The notes beneath the pieces are model-generated. The model made no database searches. It saw nothing but the letters and a program-made list of their open reading frames with translations, and was not told the DNA's origin. 64,000 bases of DNA from assembly GCA_946497035.1 (NCBI GenBank), contig CAMMIW010000010.1:1-64000 (forward strand), given 5' to 3'. The position numbers and the translations under genes were made by a program. The stretch comes from an uncultured Eubacteriaceae bacterium (GTDB lineage: Bacteria; Bacillota; Clostridia; Lachnospirales; CAG-274). Positions 39,601-62,236 of the stretch are shown here, piece by piece (position 1 is the stretch's first letter; every line of letters starts with the position of its first letter).

Positions 39601-39951
39601 GGGGATGCAATGGTTTCGACGGGGGTTTTGAAGACAGAGATAGCCATTCGTAGCGGACTCTACGTTAAAAGTTCAAAATTTTAAAAATTAAACGACAAAG
39701 ATAACTTTGCGTTTGCAGCTTAATTAAAAGCTGCCATCAGCCTTTAGTCGCTCACTGCTAAAGTTACTGGTGCCGAAAAGGTGAGGTACTTTACTCTATA
39801 AGCTTTGCTAGAGTAAAAGATTTTATGAAGCTACTTAAAATAATAGTTTGTTAGTTAACAGTTATTTTAGGGAATATCTTTTAACTAACTGTAATGGGAG
39901 AAGTTTTTGTTGACGGGCTTTCGGACAGGAGTTCGATTCTCCTCATCTCCA
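39601..39951 (+). ncRNA. ssrA: tmRNA
   Basis: Rescues stalled ribosomes by acting as tRNA-Ala and then as mRNA. The 5' end GGGGATG pairs with CATCTCC at the 3' end (one G-U) as the acceptor stem. GGTTTCGACGGGG and the T-arm GGAGTTCGATTCTCC are the usual conserved parts. The reading frame ends AAC GAC AAA GAT AAC TTT GCG TTT GCA GCT TAA (39691-39723 as separate codons), so the tag ends NDKDNFAFAA. The first residue of the tag is not certain. CCA is not encoded (the gene runs into TACC). The 3' end serves as the attachment site of a decayed prophage that follows. Confidence 0.97.
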
Positions 39952-39983
39952 TACCATAAATTTTTAATACTTTAAACCCTTTT

Positions 39984-40010
39984 AAAACCTTGATTTTTCA
40001 AGGTTTTTTA
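39984..40010 (+). terminator. Terminator downstream of ssrA
   Basis: AAAACCTTGA pairs with TCAAGGTTTT around a TTTT loop, then a T run. It lies 35 bases past the tmRNA end. Confidence 0.75.
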
Positions 40011-40079
40011 TTTTTTAATAACACAAATAAAAGTAAAAAAAGATAAATTCGGGGTAAACTCGTGGTAACTTTTTTATTA

Positions 40080-40289
40080 TTAAAATGACAAATTTTGAAT
40101 AGCTTTTTTCTTTTGTTCATCTGAAATATGTGTGTAAATATTTGCAGTCATTTTTATATAACTACGTCCCATTAGTACACTTGCTGTTATTTGTTTATAC
40201 TTAACTGTTCCATCAGCATTTCTTCCAATAGGTATTTTCTCCTTATAATAAGTTATACCTTTAATTGTTACTTTTGTAATGATAATCAC
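40080..40289 (-). pseudogene. Tyrosine integrase with a large internal deletion
   Basis: The 69 codons join two ends of a phage-type tyrosine recombinase. The first 33 or so (VTIKGITYYKEKIPIGRNADGT) look like the N-terminal start of an arm-binding domain. The last 30 (GRSYIKMTANIYTHISDEQKKKAIQNL) are the C-terminus after the catalytic Tyr region (family consensus S...T...YTHV/IS...). The core-binding and catalytic domains, some 300 residues, are gone. It lies 130 bases behind the ssrA 3' end and points towards it, the usual position for an integrase whose attachment site is ssrA. Not functional. Confidence 0.75.
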
Positions 40290-45700: not shown

Positions 45701-47250
45701 AAATATATAATAGTGGGGTTATGAACTATTATAGTGAAGCTAAAAAAGTTAGAGTACCTATTAGTGGTGTTAAGAAGTTAGAATTAATCGTTAATGATGC
45801 ATCTAACAGTAACTCTTCAGATCATGGTAACTGGGCAGATGCTAAGTTTATAACAAATAATGCTGCTCCAATTTTAACTATACCAAGCTCAGTATCTACT
45901 AAAGTTGGTGAAGAAATTGATTTAAACCAAGCTTTCACAGCAATAGATCCAGAAGATGGAGATATTACTGATAAAGTAGAAGTTAGCGGAAATGTTGACT
46001 TTAATAAAGTTGGTAAATATGATATAACATATAAAGTTACAGATAGTGATGGAAACCAAGTTGTAAAAACTAGAAGCGTTGCAGTAGTTGATATGGATGA
46101 CTATAAATATTTAACAGAGTATGACTGGTCTTCAACTCAAAATAGCTATGCTGCACCAGTTAAAGATAAAGCTACTAGCCAAAAACCTTTAAGATTAACA
46201 GGTAGTAATGGAAAAGAAGTTGTTTATGAAAAAGGTATAGGTGCTCACGCAACTTCAACAATAACTTATGATTTAACAGATAAAGATTTTGCTTATTTTA
46301 CATCTTATGTAGGTGTTGATAGACAAATGTATGGTAGCGTTGGTTCTGTAAGTTTTGAAGTTTATGTAGATGGAGTTAAAAAGTTTGATAGTGGCTTAAT
46401 GAACTCTAGAGATGAGCAAAAATATGTTGAAGTAGATATAAATGGTGCTAAAGAATTAAAACTTGTTGTAACAGACGGTGGTAATGGAATTGGATCAGAT
46501 CATGCAACTTGGGGAGATACAAAATTACATTTTGTAAATCCTAAAGAAGAAGTTGTAGAAACTGAAGCAAGAAAAGAGCTTAAAAAAGTAGTAGAGTATG
46601 CAAATACTATAACTAAAGATATGATTGGAGCAACAAATCATATTGATACAAGATGGGAAAACTTTACTAACGAATTAGAAAACGCTAAAAAGCTTTTAGA
46701 AGATACAAATAGTACAGATGAGCAAATGAATAATTCTAAAGTTATGTTAGAATACCTTATTAGCGAATTATATATTAAAGAAGAAGTAACAGAAAGTGAA
46801 GCTAAAAAAGAGCTTAAAAAAGTAGTAGAGTATGCAAACACTATAACTAAAGATATGGTTGGAGCAACAAGCCATGTTGAAAAAAGATGGGAAAACTTTA
46901 CTAACGAATTAGAAAACGCTAAAAAGCTTTTAGAAGATACAAATAGTACAGATGAGCAAATGAATAATTCTAAAGTTATGTTAGAATACCTTATTAGCGA
47001 ATTATATATTAAAGAAGAAGTAACAGAAAGTGAAGCTAAAAAAGAGCTTAAAAAAGTAGTAGAGTATGCAAACACTATAACTAAAGATATGGTTGGAGCA
47101 ACAAGCCATGTTGAAAAAAGATGGGAAAACTTTACTAATGAATTAGAAAATGCTAAAAAACTTTTAGAAGATGTAAATAGTACAGATGAGCAGATAAATA
47201 CTTCTAAAATGATGTTAGAATATTATATCAGTGAATTATATATAAAATAA
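42703..47250 (+). CDS. Secreted M60-family (enhancin-like) mucin-type metallopeptidase
   Basis: 1515 residues. Signal peptide about 1-31 (ending VFAEE). F5/8 type C/CBM32-like domain about 115-257 (NKAIDGNLNTHWETG). M60 catalytic domain about 330-720 with zinc motif HEIGH at 589-593 and a downstream Glu at 604. Ig-like domains follow near 830-905 and 1055-1130. Two NPCBM-type carbohydrate-binding domains lie near 906-1054 and 1130-1275 (WESARTDY..., GVGTHANSEIVYDL; WSSTQNSY..., GIGAHATSTITYDL). Three FIVAR repeats of 78 residues close the protein (1282-1515). No LPxTG motif or SLH domain. M60 peptidases cleave O-glycosylated mucin-like proteins, so this is a likely host-mucin enzyme. GGGGGA precedes the ATG. 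Confidence 0.93.
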   Translation: MLYKMYKKRVAVMTMATILASSSLGLVSVFAEEPNKEGEVISSNNSLHNDENLDENHEHRDYRIIEDESGLKEENRAIINNGISLLAEEEQSKKAVINRFDLQNNEKINEYNKLFKLENSKIKSISNNGGNYPNSQLNKAIDGNLNTHWETGKPNSNSFTNEVVITLDEVTELDRIVYAARRDGARGKGFAQQVEIYSSLSDNGNDFKLVASGDYSGSVADLVEIKFEPTQFKRLKFVFKKANQDWASASEIMLYKEDETRDKVNNLFTSYAMTELNPEFDSIEKIEKLQEEAKKHPLYESFLPYIEDAKDIALGQVKNIKTVVAEQQGDRDAHSSNNLKMRFGNNHQPTGILALPGDTITVYVDVEPGKPVPTLLFSQQEGSWSSWAKTVQLKPGRNDIVVPKVEQDKWYGHSVTPGGPIYIINPYTSEQQGKAPTLRFAEGVQKFPIYDKNTNEEEFLQFLKDYKQKVDEDAAKNPNVMDRKMIDVVEIVSDHAVLTVTTGGAYEAYINQGFKPSETVKMYNDHLKMLFDYLGLDGRSEKHDIKYSRQNIRLAQPYGYMYAAGNHIGVQKDVMASLLTSVNGWGINHEIGHNTDIDALNISEVLNNMLPQYASYKYGTLDERIPFESEVYKNIIKLDNNKYTEGGLSEKIAPFWQLEMVYPGYWGKLNSIYRENDIRVKDENDKLDKMAYYSSMALELDLSEFFERHGFPVSENTKEFTKQYKKPEKKIWYANYEFIKYTGEGFKNDPSLQVIKSKQGDNMKLSFNVDDSCKDDVLGYEIYKNGEVIGFTSTNSFVDKSTKFDEKVTYKVVPFDKKLNEGKSVELNSYAPILRLAQNKLTLKLGQEFEPKDIVEAYNYKGEDISESVKIDSNVDTNKKGNYEITYTVTDNNFTSQKTLNVEVVSDYVYISDLDWESARTDYNTVNKDKSSTKGDIKVNINGANTVFKKGVGTHANSEIVYDLSNENYEYFETYVGVDKNIPEQDRSSIIFKILADGKEIYNSGVMNYYSEAKKVRVPISGVKKLELIVNDASNSNSSDHGNWADAKFITNNAAPILTIPSSVSTKVGEEIDLNQAFTAIDPEDGDITDKVEVSGNVDFNKVGKYDITYKVTDSDGNQVVKTRSVAVVDMDDYKYLTEYDWSSTQNSYAAPVKDKATSQKPLRLTGSNGKEVVYEKGIGAHATSTITYDLTDKDFAYFTSYVGVDRQMYGSVGSVSFEVYVDGVKKFDSGLMNSRDEQKYVEVDINGAKELKLVVTDGGNGIGSDHATWGDTKLHFVNPKEEVVETEARKELKKVVEYANTITKDMIGATNHIDTRWENFTNELENAKKLLEDTNSTDEQMNNSKVMLEYLISELYIKEEVTESEAKKELKKVVEYANTITKDMVGATSHVEKRWENFTNELENAKKLLEDTNSTDEQMNNSKVMLEYLISELYIKEEVTESEAKKELKKVVEYANTITKDMVGATSHVEKRWENFTNELENAKKLLEDVNSTDEQINTSKMMLEYYISELYIK
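46546..47247 (+). repeat. Three tandem 234-bp repeats encoding FIVAR domains
   Basis: Units 46546-46779, 46780-47013 and 47014-47247. Long parts of units 1 and 2, and 2 and 3, are identical at DNA level, including silent positions, which indicates recent duplication and allows copy-number change by recombination. Confidence 0.9.
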
Positions 47251-47267
47251 TTAAAAAATAATATTTT

Positions 47268-47313
47268 AAAAGAGTTATATACTGTTAAAGTTAAAACAGT
47301 ATATAACTCTTTT
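47268..47313 (+). terminator. Terminator after the M60 peptidase gene
   Basis: AAAAGAGTTATATACTGTT pairs perfectly with AACAGTATATAACTCTTTT (19 bp) around a short loop, then TGTTGTTTTT. Confidence 0.85.
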
Positions 47314-47338
47314 GTTGTTTTTATGTTATTTTTAATGG

Positions 47339-47403
47339 TTGTATACTGTTTTTAGTGATAGAAAAAAATATCACTAATAAAAAACAGTGTACAATCTTTT
47401 TTT
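47339..47403 (+). terminator. Large hairpin with T tract at the start of the conjugative-element genes
   Basis: The left arm 47339-47360 (TTGTATACTGTTTTT then AGTGATA) pairs with 47369-47394 (TATCACT, a four-base bulge, then AAAAACAGTGTACAA) and is followed by CTTTTTTT. It could be a terminator, an attenuator for the gene at 47442, or part of the element end. It shares the core TATACTGTT with the terminator just upstream. Confidence 0.55.
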
Positions 47404-48680: not shown

Positions 48681-48714
48681 CATTGGTTAGTGATGGTATA
48701 TTATGGAGGATAAT

Positions 48715-49551
48715 ATGTTAGATTTAAAAGTTTTAGCGAATGAAAAATTTTATAAATTACATAAATTTTTATTTGAAGATGAAAGATTTGAAAAACTTAC
48801 AATTGAGGGAAAAGTATTATATAGCTTAATATTAGAAAGATATAAATTAAGTGTTGAAAGAGAAAGAAAAGATGAAAATGGTTATTATGTAATTTTTAGA
48901 ATTACAGAAATTCAAAAGATATTAAATTGTGGAAATCAAAAAGCAGGAAAAATATTAAACGAATTAGAATTAGTTGGTTTAATTGATAAAAGAAAACAAG
49001 GGTCAAGTAATCCAGATTTAATATACTTAAAAAATTTAAATTTTAAAGTGAAATGTGAAAATCAAAAATTTGAAAGTCACACTACAAATGATGTGAAATG
49101 TGAAAATCAAAAGTGTGAAAATCACATTTATAATAAGACTAATATTAATAAGACTAATATTAAGACTGATATTAGTAAGATTAATATACAATCTGGAGCT
49201 TTAGCTCCAGATAATAAAGGAGGTGTGAAAATCACACCTCAAGAGCAAATATATAAAATCCCACTAAAAAATGGAGATTATTATATATTATACCACGAAC
49301 AAGTAGAGATTTACAAGAGTTTATATCCAAATATCAATATTGAACAAGAATTAAGGAATATAATTGGTTGGAATATGGCTAATGTCAATAAAAGAAAATC
49401 ACTTAAAGGTATTAAGAAACATATAAATCTTTGGTTACAAAAATCTAATGCTACTGCTTTAGAGAAAATAGAGAATTTTAATCAAAAAGAAAATAGAGAA
49501 AATGTAATATATAGACCAAATTATTCAACAGATGATTTTTTTAATATTTAA
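48715..49551 (+). CDS. repA: RepA_N-family replication initiator
   Basis: 278 residues. Residues 1-110 (FYKLHKFLFEDERFEKLTIEGKVLYSLILERYKLS...RITEIQKILNCGNQKAGKILNELELVGLIDKRKQG) are the RepA_N domain with winged helix that binds iterons. The C-terminal 90 residues are a smaller helical domain. Between them is a low-complexity Asn/Lys linker (about 112-165) whose DNA is full of direct and inverted repeats, as in RepA_N plasmids where the origin lies inside rep. The start is the ATG at 48715, with GGAGG 5-6 bases upstream. Such initiators are also carried by Tn1549-type conjugative transposons, where they allow replication after excision. Confidence 0.88.
   Translation: MLDLKVLANEKFYKLHKFLFEDERFEKLTIEGKVLYSLILERYKLSVERERKDENGYYVIFRITEIQKILNCGNQKAGKILNELELVGLIDKRKQGSSNPDLIYLKNLNFKVKCENQKFESHTTNDVKCENQKCENHIYNKTNINKTNIKTDISKINIQSGALAPDNKGGVKITPQEQIYKIPLKNGDYYILYHEQVEIYKSLYPNINIEQELRNIIGWNMANVNKRKSLKGIKKHINLWLQKSNATALEKIENFNQKENRENVIYRPNYSTDDFFNI
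49048..49240 (+). repeat. Direct and inverted repeats inside repA: candidate replication origin
   Basis: Direct repeats GTGAAATGTGAAAATCAAAA at about 49048 and 49092, further copies of TGAAAATCACA (49115, 49226) and a series of GACTAATATTAA-type units (49137-49185). Two dyads follow: ATCTGGAGCT with AGCTCCAGAT (49190-49211) and GGTGTGA with TCACACC (49222-49238). The origin assignment follows the known placement in RepA_N replicons. Confidence 0.6.
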
Positions 49552-49636
49552 TTCTAATTACATATATTAACAATGAGTGGCACTCATTGTAAAAATAATA
49601 TTAAAAAAGAAGTAATGTATTAAGGAGCTAATGATA

Positions 49637-50405
49637 ATGGGATATGAAATAACTTATTGTGAAAATTGTGGTGAACAAAATACAATGGTTATCAACTTAT
49701 TAGGGGTTGATAGATTAGTACCTTGTTTATGTAGTTGTAAAAGAGAAGAGATTAAAAAAGAAAAATTTGAAGAGCATCAAAAAGAACTAGAAAGACGTAT
49801 GACTACATTAATAGCTCAAGGACTAACAGATAAAGAGTTTTTAAAAAATACTTTTGAAAAAGACAATGGTAGCAATATGAAAGTATTTAATGTTTGTAAA
49901 AAATATGTTGAAAAGTGGGAAGAAATGAAAAGGGAAAATATAGGAATACTTTTTTATGGCGATGTTGGGCGTGGTAAAACATTTTATGCAAGTTGTATAG
50001 CAAACGAACTATTCAAAAATGGAGTTTCTGTATGTATTACAAGCTTTCCTAAAGTTATCAACAAACTAATGAATTTTACTGAAGAAAGTAAACTTTTAGT
50101 AGAAAAAGTAAAATCACAAAGTTTATTAGTTATAGACGATTTTGGGGTTGAAAGAGAAACAGAGTTTGTATTAGAGCAAATGTTTCAAATTATAGATTGA
50201 TAGGCTAAGGTCTGGTCTACCAACTATAATAACAACTAATATAGGGCTTAATGAATTAAAAGAGCCAAAAACATTAGCTCAAAGACGTATATATGATAGA
50301 ATACTTGAAATGTGTTCAATACAAATTTTGGTTGATAATCAAAATAACAGGCAGGAAAAAGCTAACAGAAAAACACAACTAGCAAGACAGTTGTTGTTAG
50401 GTTAA
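49637..50405 (+). pseudogene. DnaC/IstB-like helicase loader, frameshifted
   Basis: An N-terminal zinc-finger-like start (YCENCGEQN, CLCSCKREE), Walker A in YGDVGRGKTFYASCIANELF (about residue 110) and Walker B in SLLVIDDFGVERETEF identify a DnaC/DnaI-type AAA+ loader that would bring DnaB helicase to the element's origin. Frame 1 stops at 50200 right after FQIID. The missing end continues in another frame as RLRSGLPTIITTNIGLNEL...QLARQLLLG to 50405. One extra base near 50196 explains both. Either a true mutation, a sequencing error or, less likely, programmed frameshifting. The ATG at 49637 is 9 bases after AAGGAG. Confidence 0.85.
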
Positions 50406-50436
50406 AAAGAAATTAATGAGTATAAAGGAGAAAAAA

Positions 50437-50601
50437 ATGAACAATAGAAGAGATGAAGAAAAATTAAATAAACTTTTAAAAGAAGATTTAAAAGTTAAAG
50501 AAGAGTGTTTAAGATATTATTTAGGAGATGAATTAGTAGATAGTTTAATATCATCTGGTATAGATTTAGAAGATATAGATGTCAAAGGAGAATATAATTA
50601 A
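50437..50601 (+). CDS. Small hypothetical protein before the tubR-like gene
   Basis: 54 residues, charged and helical (NNRRDEEKLNKLLKEDLKVK...YYLGDELVDSLISSGIDLED). Not recognised. AAAGGAG stands 6 bases before the ATG at 50437. It ends 25 bases before the winged-helix gene and probably shares its transcript. Confidence 0.6.
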   Translation: MNNRRDEEKLNKLLKEDLKVKEECLRYYLGDELVDSLISSGIDLEDIDVKGEYN

Positions 50602-50626: not shown

Positions 50627-50869
50627 ATGTTAAATAAAATAGAAGTATTGTTACTTGCAGAGTTAGATAATAAAAAAAAGTATACACCAATAAATTCTGT
50701 ATCAATAGATAGTTTTGATACGGCAAAGTGTATGAGTATCAATACTATTTATAAAAAAATATGTAATCTAGAAAAGTTAAACTATGTTCAAAAGGGGTTA
50801 AAAGAAAGTAAAAAAAATACATACTTTATTACAAAATTAGGTATAGAAATATTAGAAAGTTATAAATAA
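50627..50869 (+). CDS. Winged-helix DNA-binding protein, TubR-like
   Basis: 80 residues forming a single winged helix: KIEVLLLAELDNKKKY...MSINTIYKKICNLEKLNYVQKGLKESKKNTYFITKLGIEILE, with recognition helix around SINTIYKKICNLEKL and wing around ESKKNTYFIT. It lies 21 bases before a TubZ-like tubulin gene. In type III partition systems TubR is exactly such a small winged-helix protein. It binds the tubC centromere and links DNA to TubZ filaments. The name is an inference from position, size and fold. The start is the ATG at 50627, with GGAG 6 bases upstream. An ATG at 50615 lacks a site. Confidence 0.65.
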   Translation: MLNKIEVLLLAELDNKKKYTPINSVSIDSFDTAKCMSINTIYKKICNLEKLNYVQKGLKESKKNTYFITKLGIEILESYK

Positions 50870-50890
50870 AAAATAAAAGGAGAGATAATT

Positions 50891-51937
50891 ATGAAAAATA
50901 AAATAGGAGTTATTTGTATAGGACAAGCAGGAGGAAATTTAGGATTTTTATTAAAAAAGGAAAACTTTGATGTAGCATTTATTAATTCTAGCAAGGGCGA
51001 CTTAGATACATTAAATATAGATGAAAGCAAAAAATATCACATAAAAGATGGTTTAGGTTGTGCAAAAGATAGAACTACTGCAAAACAAATAGCTCAAAAA
51101 GATTTTAGTAATATAAATGAGTTTTTAAATAAATCATTAGGAGAAAAAGAGTTTTATTATATAGCTTTTTCTACTGGTGGAGGTACTGGTAGTGGAATAA
51201 GCCCAGTATTAGCAGATATATTAACTACTCATTTAGGTAAAAAAGTAGGACTTATAACTATACTACCAAGTGATAAAGATACTTTACAAGCACATATAAA
51301 TGCTTATGAGTGTGTTCAAGAAATATCCAACTTAAAAAATATATGTTCAACATTTGTTGTAGACAATAATAGAAAAAATAGTATAGCACAAATTAATGAA
51401 AAGTTTGTTAAATTATTTAATAAAATATTTGACTATAAAAAGTATGAAACAATTAAAGGCAATATTGATGAAGCAGAAATATTAAAATTGTTAGAAACAA
51501 AAGGAATGATTAATATTGCTAGTTGTAAAAATGAAGAAACAACGAATAAACTTATTGAAAATATAAAAAATGATATATTTGCTCCACTTGAGAACGATGG
51601 TAAGATTAAATATTTAGGTTTATCTAAAGGCATAAATTTTGATGAAGCTATGTTTAGTAAAGAAATAGGAAAATATTTAGATAAATTTGAAAATACAAAT
51701 AAAGAGTATACTTTAGCTATATTAAGTGGTTTAACATTACCATTTAAAAGAGTTAAAGATATGAAAGAAAAAATATTAGCAGAAAAAGAAACAATATTAT
51801 CTTTTGAAAAAGAAACAGAACAAAGGTTAGAAGATATAGATTTTTTAACTAAAAAAGTACCTATTAAAGAAGAAAATAGTAATATAGAAAAACAAAAATT
51901 AGATGTAAATGATTTATTTGCACAATATTTGAATTAA
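50891..51937 (+). CDS. tubZ: TubZ-like tubulin/FtsZ-family GTPase (type III plasmid partition)
   Basis: 348 residues. The nucleotide-binding loop GVICIGQAGGNLG is at residues 5-17, and the tubulin signature FSTGGGTGSGISPVLADIL is at about 92-110. The signature has GGGTGSG (tubulin/TubZ form) rather than GGGTGTG of FtsZ. The catalytic T7 loop (Asn-x-Asp equivalents) cannot be fixed by eye. TubZ polymers treadmill and move plasmid or phage DNA bound through TubR. Length is close to the short TubZ of clostridial phage c-st. The C-terminus (about 315-348) is a charged tail ending DLFAQYLN. AAAAGGAGAG precedes the ATG. Confidence 0.85.
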   Translation: MKNKIGVICIGQAGGNLGFLLKKENFDVAFINSSKGDLDTLNIDESKKYHIKDGLGCAKDRTTAKQIAQKDFSNINEFLNKSLGEKEFYYIAFSTGGGTGSGISPVLADILTTHLGKKVGLITILPSDKDTLQAHINAYECVQEISNLKNICSTFVVDNNRKNSIAQINEKFVKLFNKIFDYKKYETIKGNIDEAEILKLLETKGMINIASCKNEETTNKLIENIKNDIFAPLENDGKIKYLGLSKGINFDEAMFSKEIGKYLDKFENTNKEYTLAILSGLTLPFKRVKDMKEKILAEKETILSFEKETEQRLEDIDFLTKKVPIKEENSNIEKQKLDVNDLFAQYLN

Positions 51938-52005: not shown

Positions 52006-52347
52006 ATGATAATTGATATACAACATATTAGAAACAATATAGAAAAAACTAATATAGAAAATTATAAAAAAATAGCAAAGATAAAAATGCTGTTTCTAAC
52101 GATAGGTATTTTTATTGTTCTAATAGTAAAAGTTTTGGGAGAGATTGTTATGGCTATAACTGAACATAGAGTATATCTACTATTCATTTTAATTTTATTA
52201 CTTATTGGAAGTATTTTTCTGTTATTAAAAATAGAGAGATATGTAATAGCTAATATACAAACTAATATGGAAAATAGTTTATTGTATATGGAAAATCAAA
52301 TTAATGATAAGATAATAAATTATGAAGAGCCTTTAAATATAAATTAA
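52006..52347 (+). CDS. Small membrane protein with two helices
   Basis: 113 residues. Helices at about 26-50 (MLFLTIGIFIVLIVKVLGEIV) and 60-83 (YLLFILILLLIGSIFLLL), with polar ends. Not recognised. The start is doubtful: no Shine-Dalgarno lies near the ATG at 52006, while AAGGAG at 51965 is followed in the same frame by an open stretch without ATG, GTG or TTG. The reading frame upstream (ending YTDANK) looks protein-like, so the ancestral start may have been lost. Confidence 0.55.
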   Translation: MIIDIQHIRNNIEKTNIENYKKIAKIKMLFLTIGIFIVLIVKVLGEIVMAITEHRVYLLFILILLLIGSIFLLLKIERYVIANIQTNMENSLLYMENQINDKIINYEEPLNIN

Positions 52348-52376: not shown

Positions 52377-52901
52377 ATGAAGAACTTTAAAATTATAGAA
52401 GAAAAACTAAATGAATTTTTTATAAATGATAAAAAAATAGATATTATAAAAAATTCTATAATAAAACTAAAACAAAAAAGAGAGTATTTAGAATGCCAGA
52501 TAAAAGAATTAAAAATAAATTTTGATATAAGTATAAAAGGTAGTAGTATTAGTGGTATGCCAATAGCTAGTATTAATACTACTAGCTATTTTGAAAAAGA
52601 TATAATAAAGCAGGTTGATAAAAGCCAAGAACTACTAAATAATATAAATATAGAAATAATACAACTAGAAAATGACTTACTAATGTTACAAATGAAAAAT
52701 GAAACTTTTTATAGGATAATAAATATGTTAAATAGTAATAGTATAAAATTATTAACCTATAAATATAAAGAAAATTTATCGGAAATAGAAATAGCCTATA
52801 AATTAAATATGTCTATTCCAAATTATCATAGAAAAAAGCGACAAGTATTAGATACGATAAGTAAAATGTTAATTTTTTATGAAAATGTGGAATGGATGTG
52901 A
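52377..52901 (+). CDS. Sigma-70 region 4-like / DUF1492-like protein
   Basis: 174 residues. A long coiled-coil half (about 5-115, with KIDIIKNSIIKLKQKREYLECQIKEL) and a C-terminal helix-turn-helix (KLLTYKYKENLSEIEIAYKLNMSIPNYHRKKRQVLDTI), as in ArpU/DUF1492 phage-type late-gene regulators. Probably controls expression of element genes. The start is the ATG at 52377, with AGTGGGG 6 bases upstream. Confidence 0.65.
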   Translation: MKNFKIIEEKLNEFFINDKKIDIIKNSIIKLKQKREYLECQIKELKINFDISIKGSSISGMPIASINTTSYFEKDIIKQVDKSQELLNNINIEIIQLENDLLMLQMKNETFYRIINMLNSNSIKLLTYKYKENLSEIEIAYKLNMSIPNYHRKKRQVLDTISKMLIFYENVEWM

Positions 52902-52978: not shown

Positions 52979-53274
52979 ATAAAAATGTTAATTATGTGGA
53001 TAAATGTAGTATCAACATATATATCAACATACTTTTAAACATAAAAATGTTAATAACTAAAGTTAAAAAACTTGATAGGAAAATGATAGGTTTTTGATAG
53101 GAAAGTGATAGGTTTTTTTAAAAAATCTATGATACAATACTAATATGGAATTTTATATATTTGCTTTATATATTTTTTAGTTTTTTAAATTTCTTTTCTA
53201 TTTTTTGATTATGGTATCTTTATCTCTCCTTTATACATAGATTTAAAAGATAAATATATATGTTCCAAATGATT
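52979..53274. other. Non-coding region of the conjugative element with iterons
   Basis: No intact gene from 52979 to 53425. It contains two ATCAACATA copies (about 53010-53033), a pair of 23-24-base direct repeats built from four GATAGG units (53071-53117), a possible promoter before 53145 and a terminator-like hairpin at 53275-53310. A region of this kind between the replication/partition block and the transfer block is a candidate centromere (tubC) or transfer origin. Confidence 0.5.
53071..53117 (+). repeat. GATAGG iterons
   Basis: Two direct copies of TTGATAGGAAARTGATAGG followed by TTTT (R is A or G), giving four GATAGG cores with regular spacing of about 11-12 bases. Such spacing, one helical turn, suggests a protein binding along one DNA face. 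Confidence 0.75.
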
Positions 53275-53928: not shown

Positions 53929-55725
53929 ATGAAAGAAAAATTAAAAGAAAATTTAGTACCTATATTGTTAGTTTTTTTACTTTTTATATTTTTTAATAAG
54001 TATTCGGAAGCGATTAGAAATAGTCAAGAAGAAGATTTTATAAATAAAATAGTATTTAGTCTTTTAGAAGTTAAAAATATGTTTAAAAATGGGCTAATTA
54101 GCTTTAACTTTAAAGATATATTAGCAGGTATATTTATGCCACTTATATTATATGGTATCGCTACGATGAACCCTAGTAAAAATTATAAAAATGGTATAGA
54201 ATACGGCTCTGCTAGTTGGGGAAACAAAAAAGATATATTACCATTTATTGACCAAAAAAATTTTAATAATAATGTATTACTTAGCCAAACAGAACAACTA
54301 ACTATGTCTTCAAGACCTAAAAAGATAAAATATGCAAGAAATAAAAATATACTTATAGTTGGTGGTTCTGGCAGTGGTAAAACAAGGTTTTTCGTAAAAC
54401 CAAACTTAATGCAAATGCACTCAAGTTATGTTGTAACAGACCCTAAAGGAACGATAGTTATTGAGTGTGGTAAAATGCTAAAAGATAATGGATATGATTT
54501 AAAAATTTTAAATACAATAAACTTCAAAAAATCTATGAAATATAATCCTTTTGCTTATATAAAAAATGAAAAAGATGTATTAAAGTTTGTAGAAACATTG
54601 GTAGCTAATACTCAAGGAAGTGGAGCTAAAGAAGATTTTTGGGTAAAAGCAGAAAAGTTATACTATACGGCACTAGTTGGATACATAATGACACAATTAC
54701 CAGAGAAAGAAAGAAATATGTCTACATTATTATATTTAGTAAACAATTCACAAGCTAGTGAGCAAGATGAAAATTTTAAAAATCCAGTAGATTTACGTTT
54801 TGAAGAATTAGAGAAAAAAGACCCTAATCATTTTGCTGTTGGACAATATAAAAAGTTTAAATTAGCTAGTGGAGAAACAACTAAAAGTATATTAATCAGT
54901 TGTGCTACAAGATTATCCCCTTTTGATATACCATCATTAAAAGAATTAACTGAATATGATGATATGAATTTAGATACATTAGGAGATAAAAAAACTGCAT
55001 TATTTGTAATTATATCCGATACAGACGCAACATTTAATTTTTTGGTGAGCATAATGTATACTCAATTATTTAATTTATTGTGTGAAAAAGCAGATGATGT
55101 ATATGATGGTAGATTACCTGTACACGTGAGATTTTTACTAGATGAGTTTGCAAATATAGGACAAATACCTAATTTTGATAAGCTTATAGCTACAATAAGA
55201 AGTAGAGAATTGTCGGCTAGTATAATTCTTCAAACAAAAAGCCAATTAAAATCTATTTATAAAGAAAATGCAGATACAATAGTTGGTAACTGTGATACTA
55301 CATTATTTTTAGGTGGTGGAGAAGAAACAACACTAAAAGATATGTCGGAAGTATTGGGAAAAGAAACAATAGATATATTAAATAATTCATTAAGTCGTGG
55401 GCAAAGCTCATCTTATAGTACAAGTTATCAAAAAATGGGCAGAGAGCTTATGAGTAAAAATGAGTTATTTGAAATGGATGGTGCAAAGTGTATAGTTAGA
55501 ATAAGGGGTGCAAAGCCTTTTTTATCTAATAAATTTGATATAACTAAGCATAAAAACTATAAATTACTTTTAGATAGTGATGATAAAAATAAGTTTGATG
55601 TAGAAAAATATTTAAAATCTTTAGAACCAAACTTAAAAATGGGAGTTAATGATGAAGTAATTTATGAAGAAACTTATGCAGATGATATAGCAAAAGGTTT
55701 AGAAGAGTTTAAAAATCTTACATAA
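53929..55725 (+). CDS. VirD4/TraG-type coupling ATPase of the type IV secretion system
   Basis: 598 residues. Two N-terminal membrane helices (about 10-22 and 45-75), then Walker A in LIVGGSGSGKTRFFVKPNL (about 142-160), VVTDPKGT, and Walker B in VRFLLDEFANIGQIPNF (about 400). QTKSQLKSIY and LGGGEETTLKDMSEVLG follow. It receives DNA with relaxase and pumps it to the channel. Membrane ATPase, 14 bases after pcfB and followed after 13 bases by a small membrane gene. Confidence 0.93.
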   Translation: MKEKLKENLVPILLVFLLFIFFNKYSEAIRNSQEEDFINKIVFSLLEVKNMFKNGLISFNFKDILAGIFMPLILYGIATMNPSKNYKNGIEYGSASWGNKKDILPFIDQKNFNNNVLLSQTEQLTMSSRPKKIKYARNKNILIVGGSGSGKTRFFVKPNLMQMHSSYVVTDPKGTIVIECGKMLKDNGYDLKILNTINFKKSMKYNPFAYIKNEKDVLKFVETLVANTQGSGAKEDFWVKAEKLYYTALVGYIMTQLPEKERNMSTLLYLVNNSQASEQDENFKNPVDLRFEELEKKDPNHFAVGQYKKFKLASGETTKSILISCATRLSPFDIPSLKELTEYDDMNLDTLGDKKTALFVIISDTDATFNFLVSIMYTQLFNLLCEKADDVYDGRLPVHVRFLLDEFANIGQIPNFDKLIATIRSRELSASIILQTKSQLKSIYKENADTIVGNCDTTLFLGGGEETTLKDMSEVLGKETIDILNNSLSRGQSSSYSTSYQKMGRELMSKNELFEMDGAKCIVRIRGAKPFLSNKFDITKHKNYKLLLDSDDKNKFDVEKYLKSLEPNLKMGVNDEVIYEETYADDIAKGLEEFKNLT

Positions 55726-56580: not shown

Positions 56581-58929
56581 ATGAATTTAACTTCTTCCCA
56601 AAGAAGAAAAATAAATCAAATTATTAGGGAAAGTAATACAAAAAATAAAGATAGCACTCAAAATATGCTATGTTTTGATGAAATATTAAAAAATGGTATT
56701 TGTGTTGTTGGTAAAAATATATATTCTAAAACTATAAGATTTTTTGATATTAACTATTTATTATCTAATAATGAAGATAAAGTAGCTATTTTTGATAATT
56801 ATTGTGAGTTTTTAAATTATTTTGATAATAAAATCAAAGTACAATTAACATTTTATAATCAAGAAATGGATACTTCCGAATTTTATAAACACATTAATAT
56901 AAAGATGCAAAATGATAACTTTAACTACTTAAGAGAAGAATATTTAGAAATGTTAAAAAATCAATTAGAAAAAGGTAATAATGGTATAGTTAAATCTAAA
57001 TATATTACTTTTTCTGTTGAAGATGAAGACTATAAAAGGGCTAAAGCTAGATTAGAACGTATTGAACTGGATATGTTAAATAACTTTAAAATGATGGGAG
57101 TGTTGGCAGAAAGTTTAAATGGCTATGAAAGGTTAGAAATTTTATATAATATTTTTTATCCAAAAGAAAAATTTATATTTAACTACAATATGATAAAAGA
57201 TACTGGACTAACAACTAAAGATTTTGTTGCTCCTATGTCAACTAAAATAGATATTAAAAATATTCAATTAGGTAGTAAATATTGTTCTAGTTTTTATTTA
57301 CAAATAGTAGTTAAAGAAATGGCAGATAGAATATTAGCCGACTTTTTGGATATAGAAAACAATTTGCTTTTAAATATTCATTTAAAAACGATAGACCAAG
57401 TAGAAGCTATAAAAATTGTTCAACGAAAAAGAATGGACGTTGAGGGTCAAAAGGTTGAAAGTCAAAAAAAGGCATTAGCAAATGGTTATGATATGGACAT
57501 TTTACCTTTAGAACTACAAGAAAATATTGATGAAACGACTAGCTTATTAGAAATGCTAAAAAGTAGGCACGAACATCTATTTTTAGCAACTGTAATAATA
57601 ACATCTTTTGCAGATAGTAAAGAAGATTTAGAAAATGTAAATATGCAATTAAAGGGTGTAGCTCAAAAACATAGTTGTAATTTAAGATGTTTAGAGTATC
57701 AACAAGAACAAGCTTTAAATTCTAGTTTACCAATAGGTAACAACTTAATTGAGATAGAAAGAACGTTAACTACAACATCTACGGCTATATTTGTCCCCTT
57801 TACTACTGAAGAACTTTTTTCTTCTAGTAAAGAAAGTCTTTACTATGGTTTAAATGCACTATCTAACAATGTTATTTTTGCCGATAGAAAAGAACTAAAA
57901 AATCCTAATGGCTTAATTTTAGGAACGCCAGGCTCTGGTAAATCATTTAGTGCAAAAAGAGAAATAACAAATGCTTTTTTAGTAACAGATGATGATATTA
58001 TGATATGCGACCCTGAAAATGAATTTTCAAATTTAACACAGGCTTTTGGTGGACAAGTAATAAATATTAGTCCTAATTCTAAAGATTATGTAAATATTAT
58101 GGATATAAACTTAAATTACTCTGATGATGATAATCCATTAACATTAAAGAGTGATTTTTTATTGGCTTTTTTTGAATTAGTTTGTGCAGGAAAGGACGGT
58201 TTAAATGCAGTTGAAAAGTCTATTATAGATAGGTGTGTTAAATTAGTATATCAAGATTATTTAGCCAATCCTATCGATAAAAATGTACCTATATTAGAAG
58301 ATTTATATAATTTAATTAAAAAACAAGATGAACCAGAAGCTAAAAATTTAGCAGTATCTTTAGAAATTTATGTTACAGGTAATTTTAATTATTTTAATAA
58401 CAAGACTAATGTTGACATAAACAATAGGCTTGTTTCTTTTAATATTAAAGATTTAGGTAACCAAATTAAAAAGATAGGAATGCTCGTTGTTCAAGACCAA
58501 ATATGGAATAGAATATCGCAAAATAGAGATTTAAAAAAATCTACAAGGTATTATATAGATGAGTTTCACTTACAATTAAAAGAACAACAGACGGCAAGTT
58601 ATAGTGTAGAAGTATGGAAAAGAGCTAGAAAATATGGGGGTATACCAACAGGTATAACTCAAAATGTTAAAGACTTTTTAGCTTCTAAAGAAGTTGAAAA
58701 TATATTTGAAAATAGTGATTTTGTATATATGCTTAATCAAGGTGGTGGAGATAGAGAAATACTTGCAAGACAATTAAATATTTCTGCTACACAGTTAAGT
58801 TATATTACAGATAGTCAAGTAGGTTGTGGTTTAATTAAATATAGTGGAATTATTATACCTTTTGTAGATAGATTTCCTAAAGATACACAACTATATAAAA
58901 TGATGACAACAAAATTAAATGAAAATTAG
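56581..58929 (+). CDS. VirB4/TrsE-type ATPase of the type IV secretion system
   Basis: 782 residues from the ATG at 56581. The N-terminal CagE/TrbE/VirB domain contains LFNYNMIKDTGLTTKDFVAPM-type sequence (about 195-225). Walker A is GTPGSGKSFSAKRE (about 448-461) and Walker B is RYYIDEFHLQL (about 655-665), followed by GGIPTGITQNVKDFLAS. It powers assembly and substrate transfer at the membrane. The frame is open upstream to 56524 (FFNNSKKRKINTTKLNK, as in related VirB4 N-termini), but that part has no ATG, GTG or TTG. GAAAGG stands 10 bases before an ATT at 56524, so the true start may be that ATT. Confidence 0.92.
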   Translation: MNLTSSQRRKINQIIRESNTKNKDSTQNMLCFDEILKNGICVVGKNIYSKTIRFFDINYLLSNNEDKVAIFDNYCEFLNYFDNKIKVQLTFYNQEMDTSEFYKHINIKMQNDNFNYLREEYLEMLKNQLEKGNNGIVKSKYITFSVEDEDYKRAKARLERIELDMLNNFKMMGVLAESLNGYERLEILYNIFYPKEKFIFNYNMIKDTGLTTKDFVAPMSTKIDIKNIQLGSKYCSSFYLQIVVKEMADRILADFLDIENNLLLNIHLKTIDQVEAIKIVQRKRMDVEGQKVESQKKALANGYDMDILPLELQENIDETTSLLEMLKSRHEHLFLATVIITSFADSKEDLENVNMQLKGVAQKHSCNLRCLEYQQEQALNSSLPIGNNLIEIERTLTTTSTAIFVPFTTEELFSSSKESLYYGLNALSNNVIFADRKELKNPNGLILGTPGSGKSFSAKREITNAFLVTDDDIMICDPENEFSNLTQAFGGQVINISPNSKDYVNIMDINLNYSDDDNPLTLKSDFLLAFFELVCAGKDGLNAVEKSIIDRCVKLVYQDYLANPIDKNVPILEDLYNLIKKQDEPEAKNLAVSLEIYVTGNFNYFNNKTNVDINNRLVSFNIKDLGNQIKKIGMLVVQDQIWNRISQNRDLKKSTRYYIDEFHLQLKEQQTASYSVEVWKRARKYGGIPTGITQNVKDFLASKEVENIFENSDFVYMLNQGGGDREILARQLNISATQLSYITDSQVGCGLIKYSGIIIPFVDRFPKDTQLYKMMTTKLNEN

Positions 58930-60118: not shown

Positions 60119-62236
60119 ATGGCTAAAGAAAACGCTAAAAAATCATTAAATAACAGAAAAAATATTGAAATATTAAACAATAAAAATACTAAAAATATAA
60201 AATTAAGAAGTCCTAAAATAGAAAATGGTAGATTTAAAAATAGTAATATTAAATTAGATAAAAACACTATAAAAAAGAAAAATTTTAAAAGGCAGTTAAA
60301 AGCTAATATTGTAGCTAATAGTAAAAAAACTATCGAAAATACTGTTAATATACCAATAGAAAAAAACAAAAATGAGCCAATTATTAAAAATACTATAATT
60401 AATAATAAAGATGAATTTAAAAATAGTAATATTAATACATTAGGCTCGCCAAATAATATAAAAAATAATAAGAAAAGTAGTATTAATTTAAAAAATCAAG
60501 TTATAAGCAAAAAAAGCGATAATAACTTGCAAAATAAATTAACTAATAATACTACTAAAAATAAAAAACTTTATAAAAATAAGCAAAATAAAATTTATAA
60601 AGAAAAAAATTCTAAAGAACAAGTTAAAAATACATTAGAAGATATTAATATATTTACAAATGAAAAGCTAGATGAGTTAGAGAAAGAAGAAAATAAGCCT
60701 AATGATAACATAAAAATAAGCAAAAATAAAAAATACCAAAGGCTAAAATCTAAAGAAGATAAAAATATAGATGGCATAAATACAGAAAACTTAAATATTG
60801 ATTTAAAAAATGCTAGTATTGAACAAAAACAAATAAAATATCGTTTTAAACAACAAAAAATCTATAATAGACTTAAAAAGAAAGATTCTATTAAAGTAGG
60901 TATAGAAAGAACACCTATTTATAATGAAGAAAAAGATAGTTATGATGATATAAAGAAAAAATTAGTTGTGAAAAAACAAAAAGAAATACGATATGATAAA
61001 AGTGTTCCAACTAGATTGAAAAATTATACAGTAGATTTAGCAAGGTATAAAATAAAGCAAAAATTTAGGGAAAATGAAGAAGATAATTCTTCAGTAAAGG
61101 CTTCAAATAAAATAGGTTTTTTTATTGAAAGGCAAGTTGTTAATAAATTACGTTCTGGTAATGAAAGAAGACTTTTAAAATATCAAAAATTAGATAAAAA
61201 AGTTGAAAATTTAGAATATAAGAAAACTTTAAATAATTTAAAAAAAGAGTATAAAAATGATAAAACAACTTATAAAAAAGCCTATAAAAATCTTAGACAA
61301 CAAAAAAGATTAAATAGAAAAATGCAAAGAAAAACCTTTAAAAAAGCAAATATTATAAAAGCTAAAAATTTTTTAGCATTAACAAAAATAAGTACAAATA
61401 TAATAAACGCTTTATTGTCCTTTAAAGCTATAATAATAAGTATAGTAGCAGGTTTATTTTTAGGATTAATAGGCTTTATAGTAGCAATAGTAATATTACT
61501 TACTTCTATGGGTGGTGGTGTAGGAAATATTTATGAAATACAAAAAGCAGAACTCTATTATAGAGAACTAGAAGCAAAAGCAGAATTTTATGATAATAAA
61601 TATATAGACCACGACCCAATTCATTTAGCGTCATTTTTAACTTGTTTGTTTGGAGAATTTGTATTTGATGAAAATATACAAAGTTTTTTAGATGAACTTA
61701 TGCAAAGGCAATATGATGGTAAAAGTTTAGACCAATTAGTGAGTGATAGTTTAACAAAAGAACAGTATGAAATGTGGCAACAATTAAATGCAACAAAACT
61801 AAATTTAATTAAATATGGTAGTCCATTTCAAGTAGAATATGAAAGTAGAATAACATCATATATAGGTTATAGAATAAATCCAACATCTAGTACACCAGAA
61901 CTACAACTACATAAAGGTTTAGATATAGGTATGGCAGGAGGTACACCAATTTTAGCTATATCCGATGGAACAGTAACAAGAGCTAATTATTCTAGTAGTT
62001 TTGGTAATATAGTTGAAATACGCCACGAAGACGGCTATTTAAGTAAGTATGCACACCAACAGAGATTAAATGTTGTGAAAGGGCAAAAAGTAAAAAAAGG
62101 TGATGTTATAGGTTTTGTTGGAACTACTGGAGATAGTACAGGAAATCACTTACATTTAGAGCTTTATGATGAAAATGGGGAATTTATGAACCCAATATTT
62201 GTAATAGAACGAGGTGGAAATACAGAAAATGAATGA
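60119..62236 (+). CDS. Membrane-anchored M23 (LytM) peptidase of the transfer system
   Basis: 705 residues. The first 430 are very rich in Lys and Asn without a recognisable domain (NIEILNNKNTKNIKL...), mostly helical between about 330 and 430. One membrane helix at about 436-460 (IIISIVAGLFLGLIGFIVAI) is followed by an extracellular part and an M23 domain with zinc ligands in LHKGLDIGM (His-x3-Asp), EIRHEDGYLSKYAH and NHLHLEL. The peptidase cuts wall peptides so the channel can cross. Related elements use NlpC/P60 or CHAP enzymes here. The long basic cytoplasmic arm is unusual and may bind DNA or the channel ATPases (inference). Confidence 0.9.
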   Translation: MAKENAKKSLNNRKNIEILNNKNTKNIKLRSPKIENGRFKNSNIKLDKNTIKKKNFKRQLKANIVANSKKTIENTVNIPIEKNKNEPIIKNTIINNKDEFKNSNINTLGSPNNIKNNKKSSINLKNQVISKKSDNNLQNKLTNNTTKNKKLYKNKQNKIYKEKNSKEQVKNTLEDINIFTNEKLDELEKEENKPNDNIKISKNKKYQRLKSKEDKNIDGINTENLNIDLKNASIEQKQIKYRFKQQKIYNRLKKKDSIKVGIERTPIYNEEKDSYDDIKKKLVVKKQKEIRYDKSVPTRLKNYTVDLARYKIKQKFRENEEDNSSVKASNKIGFFIERQVVNKLRSGNERRLLKYQKLDKKVENLEYKKTLNNLKKEYKNDKTTYKKAYKNLRQQKRLNRKMQRKTFKKANIIKAKNFLALTKISTNIINALLSFKAIIISIVAGLFLGLIGFIVAIVILLTSMGGGVGNIYEIQKAELYYRELEAKAEFYDNKYIDHDPIHLASFLTCLFGEFVFDENIQSFLDELMQRQYDGKSLDQLVSDSLTKEQYEMWQQLNATKLNLIKYGSPFQVEYESRITSYIGYRINPTSSTPELQLHKGLDIGMAGGTPILAISDGTVTRANYSSSFGNIVEIRHEDGYLSKYAHQQRLNVVKGQKVKKGDVIGFVGTTGDSTGNHLHLELYDENGEFMNPIFVIERGGNTENE

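Follow-up and report, generated by a model that had tools for sequence, protein, structure and literature searches.

The DNA considered here is a window of 64,000 nucleotides from an uncultured Eubacteriaceae bacterium (CAG-274), forming part of contig C10 (82.8 kb) in a genome of 2.0 Mb and 35 contigs. Within a conjugative element it carries two adjacent genes that had been interpreted, from the sequence alone, as a tubulin-based (type III, TubR-TubZ-like) partition pair:

50627 to 50869, plus strand: tubR, encoding an 80-amino-acid (aa) winged-helix protein, predicted to bind the centromere, with TubR matches in sequence and fold
50891 to 51937, plus strand: tubZ, encoding a 348-aa tubulin-like GTPase, assigned by Pfam and PDB matches and distinct from FtsZ

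The open reading frames (ORFs) agree with that original prediction in coordinates, lengths and spacing. The tubR frame starts with ATG at 50627 and stops at 50867-50869, exactly 21 bases before the tubZ frame, and GQAGGN and GGGTGSG both lie within the 348-residue protein. The product of 50891-51937 is TubZ. Pfam models PF00091 Tubulin (2.7e-13) and PF22340 TubZ_C_3 (6.1e-10) each score above gathering, and the best PDB match, over the full length, is TubZ of Clostridium botulinum phage c-st (3v3t/4xcq, E 1e-28). Among PHROGs, phrog_17961 matches the whole length at 6.7e-28, against 1.3e-10 for the PhuZ family phrog_4733. The FtsZ model TIGR00065 reaches 37.5 bits against a cut-off of 295 bits, and the genome's own FtsZ is a separate gene on contig C12 (406.7 bits). 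Together, the Pfam, TIGR00065 and PDB results and the separate FtsZ rule out FtsZ or another tubulin family for this protein. Residue E196, in the invariant GNIDEAE of TubZ, aligns with E200 of c-st TubZ, a catalytic-loop residue (PMC5322520). This acid and the GGGTGSG nucleotide loop are invariant in all six aligned TubZ copies.

The product of 50627-50869 is TubR, as the original prediction had supposed of the winged-helix gene. Its best PDB match by sequence is TubR 6tey (E 3.6e-4), and its AlphaFold model (predicted local distance difference test, pLDDT, 94.9), compared with the whole PDB, retrieves TubR 6tey and TubR 4asn as first and second fold matches. Between the window copy and that of a related genome, G005, the ratio of nonsynonymous to synonymous substitution rates (dN/dS) is 0.07 for tubR, 0.12 for tubZ and 0.12 for virD4; tubR and tubZ are thus under purifying selection at a level similar to that of virD4. 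The GTPase is not an FtsZ, its catalytic-loop acid is in place, and the gene beside it is conserved.

Conjugative and replicative context

The pair lies between a replication module and a conjugation operon, which include the following features:

47314 to 47338, no strand: left boundary of the element
48703 to 49551, plus strand: RepA_N replication initiator (PF06970, 3.2e-21), with internal GTGAAAATCA-like iterons (48929-49234)
49631 to 50200, plus strand: dnaC-type helicase loader, 189 aa, frame-broken in its 3' part (255 aa in the G005 copy)
50416 to 50601, plus strand: small conserved ORF in the dnaC-tubR gap, with a 63% identical 55-aa ORF in the G003 element
52006 to 52347, plus strand: 113-aa hydrophobic product, probably a membrane protein, of a gene lying after tubZ and ahead of the third cassette gene, present in this copy only and without G005 counterpart
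52377 to 52901, plus strand: third cassette gene (phrog_36), a presumed ArpU/RinA-type regulator read from ATG 52377, with a longer reading from 52356
53073 to 53112, plus strand: four direct repeats TGATAGG at 11-bp steps, candidate tubC (4 copies against 0.035 expected)
53929 to 55725, plus strand: VirD4-type coupling protein, CD1115 family (NF045973, 554.6 bits, cut-off 250)
56581 to 58929, plus strand: VirB4-type ATPase, CD1110 family (NF045971, 1026.1 bits, cut-off 325)
60119 to 62236, plus strand: M23 peptidase of the conjugation machine (PF01551, 3.4e-31)

TopB and a DUF3991/Toprim protein, together with the M23 peptidase, come after the VirD4 and VirB4 genes. These profiles place the type IV secretion system (T4SS) with the CD1115/CD1110 (Tn1549-like) systems of C. 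difficile; the Tn1549-like backbone originally proposed thus holds, with VirD4 and VirB4 well above their cut-offs and synteny in agreement. A MOBP relaxase is encoded on contig C23 (PF03432, 6.7e-33). When G005 contig C13 is used as a ruler, homology to C10 stops at 82784 and homology to C23 resumes 3 bases further on (G005 coordinates); on this synteny, C23 with its relaxase is very likely the remainder that completes the C10 element. About 50 bases on either side of the C10/C23 break (L005:18785-18835 and L109:1-53), inside an SNF2 helicase gene, are unmatched in G005 and represent an insertion. Rfam names nothing in these flanks, and an Rfam scan of the whole element gave no match.

On its left side the element has a sharp junction: beyond 47313, at the end of a chromosomal gene, the window loses its homology to the surface-protein locus of G005, which is free of the element. 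At C23 no counterpart was found of the G005 gene that lies 3' of the surface protein, and the comparison yielded no clean empty site. A tmRNA (tag DKDNFAFAA) lies in window 39601-40289, followed by a small reverse ORF that resembles two fused Tn916-type integrase ends and has no Pfam match; the tmRNA as insertion site is unsupported, the junction at 47313 being 7 kb further along. The long hairpin at 47338-47393 (TTGTATACTGTTTTTAGTGATA ... TATCACTAA ... AACAGTGTACAA) was likewise rejected as an element end. Diverged copies of it occur at 10 or more sites in genome G001 and also in other genomes of the genus, mostly intergenic, and it looks like a small dispersed repeat. Two surface-protein observations concern the same surroundings: three 234-bp tandem repeats (window 46542-47247) lie within the C-terminal part of the 1515-aa surface protein gene adjoining the element, and a protein that combines S-layer homology repeats with a sortase domain is borne by the element beside a 2005-aa surface protein (L005:398-1510).

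RepA_N plasmids usually have their origin within repA. The window repA holds five GTGAAAATCA-like iterons against 0.2 expected, and the G005 repA just one; a DnaB gene is also present in the G005 element. Tandem 16-bp repeats (TTTAGGTTGTATAATA) stand at the start of the G005 contig (L049:1-70, C13), just 5' of dnaB, where an origin array or an assembly edge is possible.

Behind the third gene, type A elements (the window element and that of G005) have 4-5 direct repeats at 11-bp steps, reading TGATAGG in the window and TGTTAGG at the same place in G005. The repeat is uniform inside each element and different between elements, as would be expected of a site that tracks its binding protein. Type B elements (in G001, G002, G003, G006 and on a second contig, C17, of the window genome) have other repeats, GTTTCAAAATGA, upstream of tubR in 2-5 copies against 0.1-0.2 expected, with none in C17.

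Distribution and probable origin of the cassette

The pair recurs in related elements, being kept in five other genomes of the genus. Intact TubZ is present in six of the eight genomes, the other five copies being 61-85% identical to the window TubZ, and tubR adjoins tubZ in all six intact loci as well as in prophages; G007 has a decayed copy of the region. The intactness of both genes and their conservation in further genomes put the pair far beyond chance. The G005 element is close to that of the window (TubZ 85%, VirB4 94%). Type B elements have different neighbours and, where covered, a different backbone, with T4SS ATPases 21-28% identical to those of type A. In the finished 2.04-Mb chromosome of G001, the type B element reaches from its three large serine recombinases, near 1,410.8 kb, as far as tubRZ, at 1,470.4 kb, and its interior encodes a MOBP relaxase, VirD4-like and VirB4-like proteins and a T2SSE-type ATPase. 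The original prediction held that Tn1549-type elements usually carry ParA/ParB-type genes. A ParB-like gene is present in the type B element; neither a ParB-like gene nor a ParA Walker motif was found in type A. The window genome holds both types, the tubZ of its second TubR-TubZ pair (L006:10138-11168, on C17) being broken in frame. The C17 element also carries genes resembling sugar-uptake and sucrose-hydrolase genes. Near tubRZ, a membrane-anchored protein that reads as SPFH-like occurs both in a phage-like locus (L079:11329-12189, G374) and in the G001 type B element (L043:17515-18378), the two being 36% identical.

The third cassette gene follows tubZ in both element types, its copies being 37-78% identical. 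Its product of about 173 aa has, by model and fold search, two long N-terminal helices and a C-terminal part like sigma region 4, a helix-turn-helix (HTH). It belongs to phrog_36 and phrog_248, labelled in the library as transcriptional regulator/activator, which we take to be ArpU/RinA-type. A member of these families occupies the same place after tubZ in the prophages G139 and G094, and tubR-tubZ-arpU is therefore one cassette common to prophages and conjugative elements.

In known type III systems, TubY has an N-terminal MerR-type HTH, a C-terminal coiled coil and a lysine tail; its gene lies downstream of tubRZ in Clostridium botulinum, and it is reported to be necessary for stable plasmid maintenance (PMC7762940). 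The third gene was rejected as TubY on domain order, profiles (phrog_36/248) and fold.

At a threshold of E 1e-15, TubZ of this kind occurs in 13 of the 392 genomes searched within the order, six of which belong to this genus. Another 390 genomes from the class gave two carriers, and another 398 from the phylum gave none. Outside the genus, the loci that can be assigned belong either to prophages, bearing terminase, portal or tail genes, or to chromosomal TubZ close to dnaA/dnaN; no T4SS gene was found in the stretches read, and several other loci lie on short contigs. Scans of IMG/VR with this TubZ gave no match, and all 21 TubZ plasmid matches in PLSDB are typed as non-mobilizable. In the tree, TubZ of these integrative and conjugative elements (ICEs) forms one group (100/100), with two prophage TubZ as nearest neighbours at moderate support (83/81). 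The cassette probably came from a prophage and then passed between the two conjugative backbones seen in the genus, which are unrelated to each other.

Probable partition of the excised circle and rival readings

TubRZ machinery has so far been known for moving plasmids and phage genomes, and here it is on a chromosome-borne conjugative element. With a probability of roughly 70%, tubRZ is a type III partition cassette of the ICE, which segregates the excised, replicating circle. Starting from the observed identities, conservation, selection, and conjugative and replicative context, we infer excision, a TubR site, a filament and partition. The excised element would replicate as a circle by means of its RepA_N initiator and DnaC loader, with DnaB too in the G005 relative; TubR would bind a repeat array on this circle, and TubZ filaments would carry the TubR-array complex, ensuring that neither daughter cell loses the circle, which could then reintegrate or be transferred through the Tn1549-like T4SS. 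Tubulin filaments that move or stabilise the circular form, as first proposed for this element, thus appear to be the best reading.

This reading is favoured because the identities of TubZ and TubR are accompanied by a separate FtsZ on another contig, because the pair is conserved in six of eight genomes and on two backbones as different as their T4SS ATPases indicate, and because tubR and tubZ are under purifying selection between the window and G005. It is also favoured by the adjoining replication module, by the location of type B in a finished chromosome with serine recombinases, relaxase and VirD4-like/VirB4-like genes, by the lack of a detected ParB-like gene or ParA Walker motif in type A, and by the precedent of srpMRC on ICE R391 (PMC4489591).

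Several points weigh on the other side. A frame break in dnaC and the disruption of a helicase gene where the contig ends mean that the window copy may no longer be mobile; lacking a recognised integrase as well, it looks partly decayed. No integrase was recognised among the inspected ORFs of C10 and C23; no att repeat was resolved in type A, and none was found between the element ends of either type. The link of the relaxase to C10 depends on synteny with G005. Searching the element with a MerR-like protein encoded at a chromosomal TubZ locus gave no TubY homologue, though a very diverged TubY could escape such a search. Lastly, the candidate centromere of type A is downstream of the third gene and not upstream of tubR, and the candidate repeats could instead bind RepA or a conjugation regulator.

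Among other explanations, it is unlikely that the element is really a plasmid which the assembly has wrongly joined to chromosomal sequence in C10. RepA_N replication genes and the missing integrase would suit a plasmid, and the contigs end in repeats or insertions, with the G005 contig beginning in a repeat array. Nevertheless, the left junction coincides sharply with a chromosomal gene end, the G005 element contig continues into genes reading as chromosomal, and the finished 2.04-Mb chromosome contains a related TubRZ element. TubZ might also position the element's DNA otherwise than by segregation at division, for example by taking the replicating circle to the pore used in conjugation or by placing it centrally, in the manner of PhuZ with phage DNA. 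The cassette lies immediately 5' of the conjugation operon and includes a phage-type regulator, and the closest TubZ outside the genus are prophage-borne. This role is rather improbable, given that TubR, the DNA-binding adaptor of type III systems, stands beside every tubZ of the genus with intact surroundings, and that c-st TubZ, whose role in partition is known, is a closer relative of the window protein than PhuZ is (6.7e-28 against 1.3e-10). The purifying selection on tubR and tubZ between two elements, their integrity in six elements and the invariant GTPase motifs make it improbable that the cassette is a phage relic, retained for regulation or incompatibility and devoid of a segregation role in the ICE, even though the order tubR-tubZ-arpU is common to prophages, the tubZ of the other pair in the window genome is broken and the window element is partly decayed.

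The intact TubRZ pair suggests that elements classed as "integrative" also exist, and pass to daughter cells, as plasmids. More speculatively, and with more doubt than confidence, there could be a family of ICEs kept largely as TubRZ-segregated plasmids, the phage-derived tubR-tubZ-arpU, a type III variant of its own with the sigma-like ArpU replacing TubY, being shuffled between unrelated backbones and differing centromere specificities letting two elements coexist per cell. If partition is correct, the tubulin-type system of these Tn1549-like elements would add, from another bacterial group, an independent second ICE case to the actin-type system of SXT/R391, and would favour the idea of a continuum between ICEs and conjugative plasmids. 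A cassette common to prophages and two conjugative backbones also provides a path for the movement of cytoskeletal DNA-segregation genes.

Comparison with known systems

The closest known system is TubR-TubZ-TubY of the phage-plasmid c-st, which is the best match of TubZ over its full length and resembles the present pair in having tubR, here best matched to TubR by sequence and fold, directly 5' of tubZ. It differs in that the host element here is integrated and conjugative, no MerR-type TubY was found, an ArpU/RinA-type gene follows tubZ, and the candidate repeats lie downstream. The Bacillus-type plasmid systems (pBtoxis, pXO1, pBM400, pBsph) share the type III pair, and TubR of pBM400 is the second fold match; however, these are free plasmids, and the window TubZ is about 28% identical to that of pBM400. 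A pBsph-like plasmid, p1593, is conjugative (PMC13239906). A literature search found no paper linking TubZ with an ICE, but its coverage was incomplete, so novelty is unproven.

With Tn1549/CTn-type ICEs of C. difficile the element shares CD1115-type VirD4, CD1110-type VirB4, the M23 peptidase, TopB, DUF3991/Toprim and the MOBP relaxase, whereas TubRZ and the RepA_N/DnaC module set it apart, as does the absence of a recognised integrase in the window copy. A precedent is srpMRC, a ParMRC-like system that stabilises ICE R391 of the SXT/R391 family and is likewise an active plasmid-type partition system carried by an ICE (PMC4489591); unlike TubRZ, it is actin-like (type II) and gammaproteobacterial, and its proteins are unrelated.
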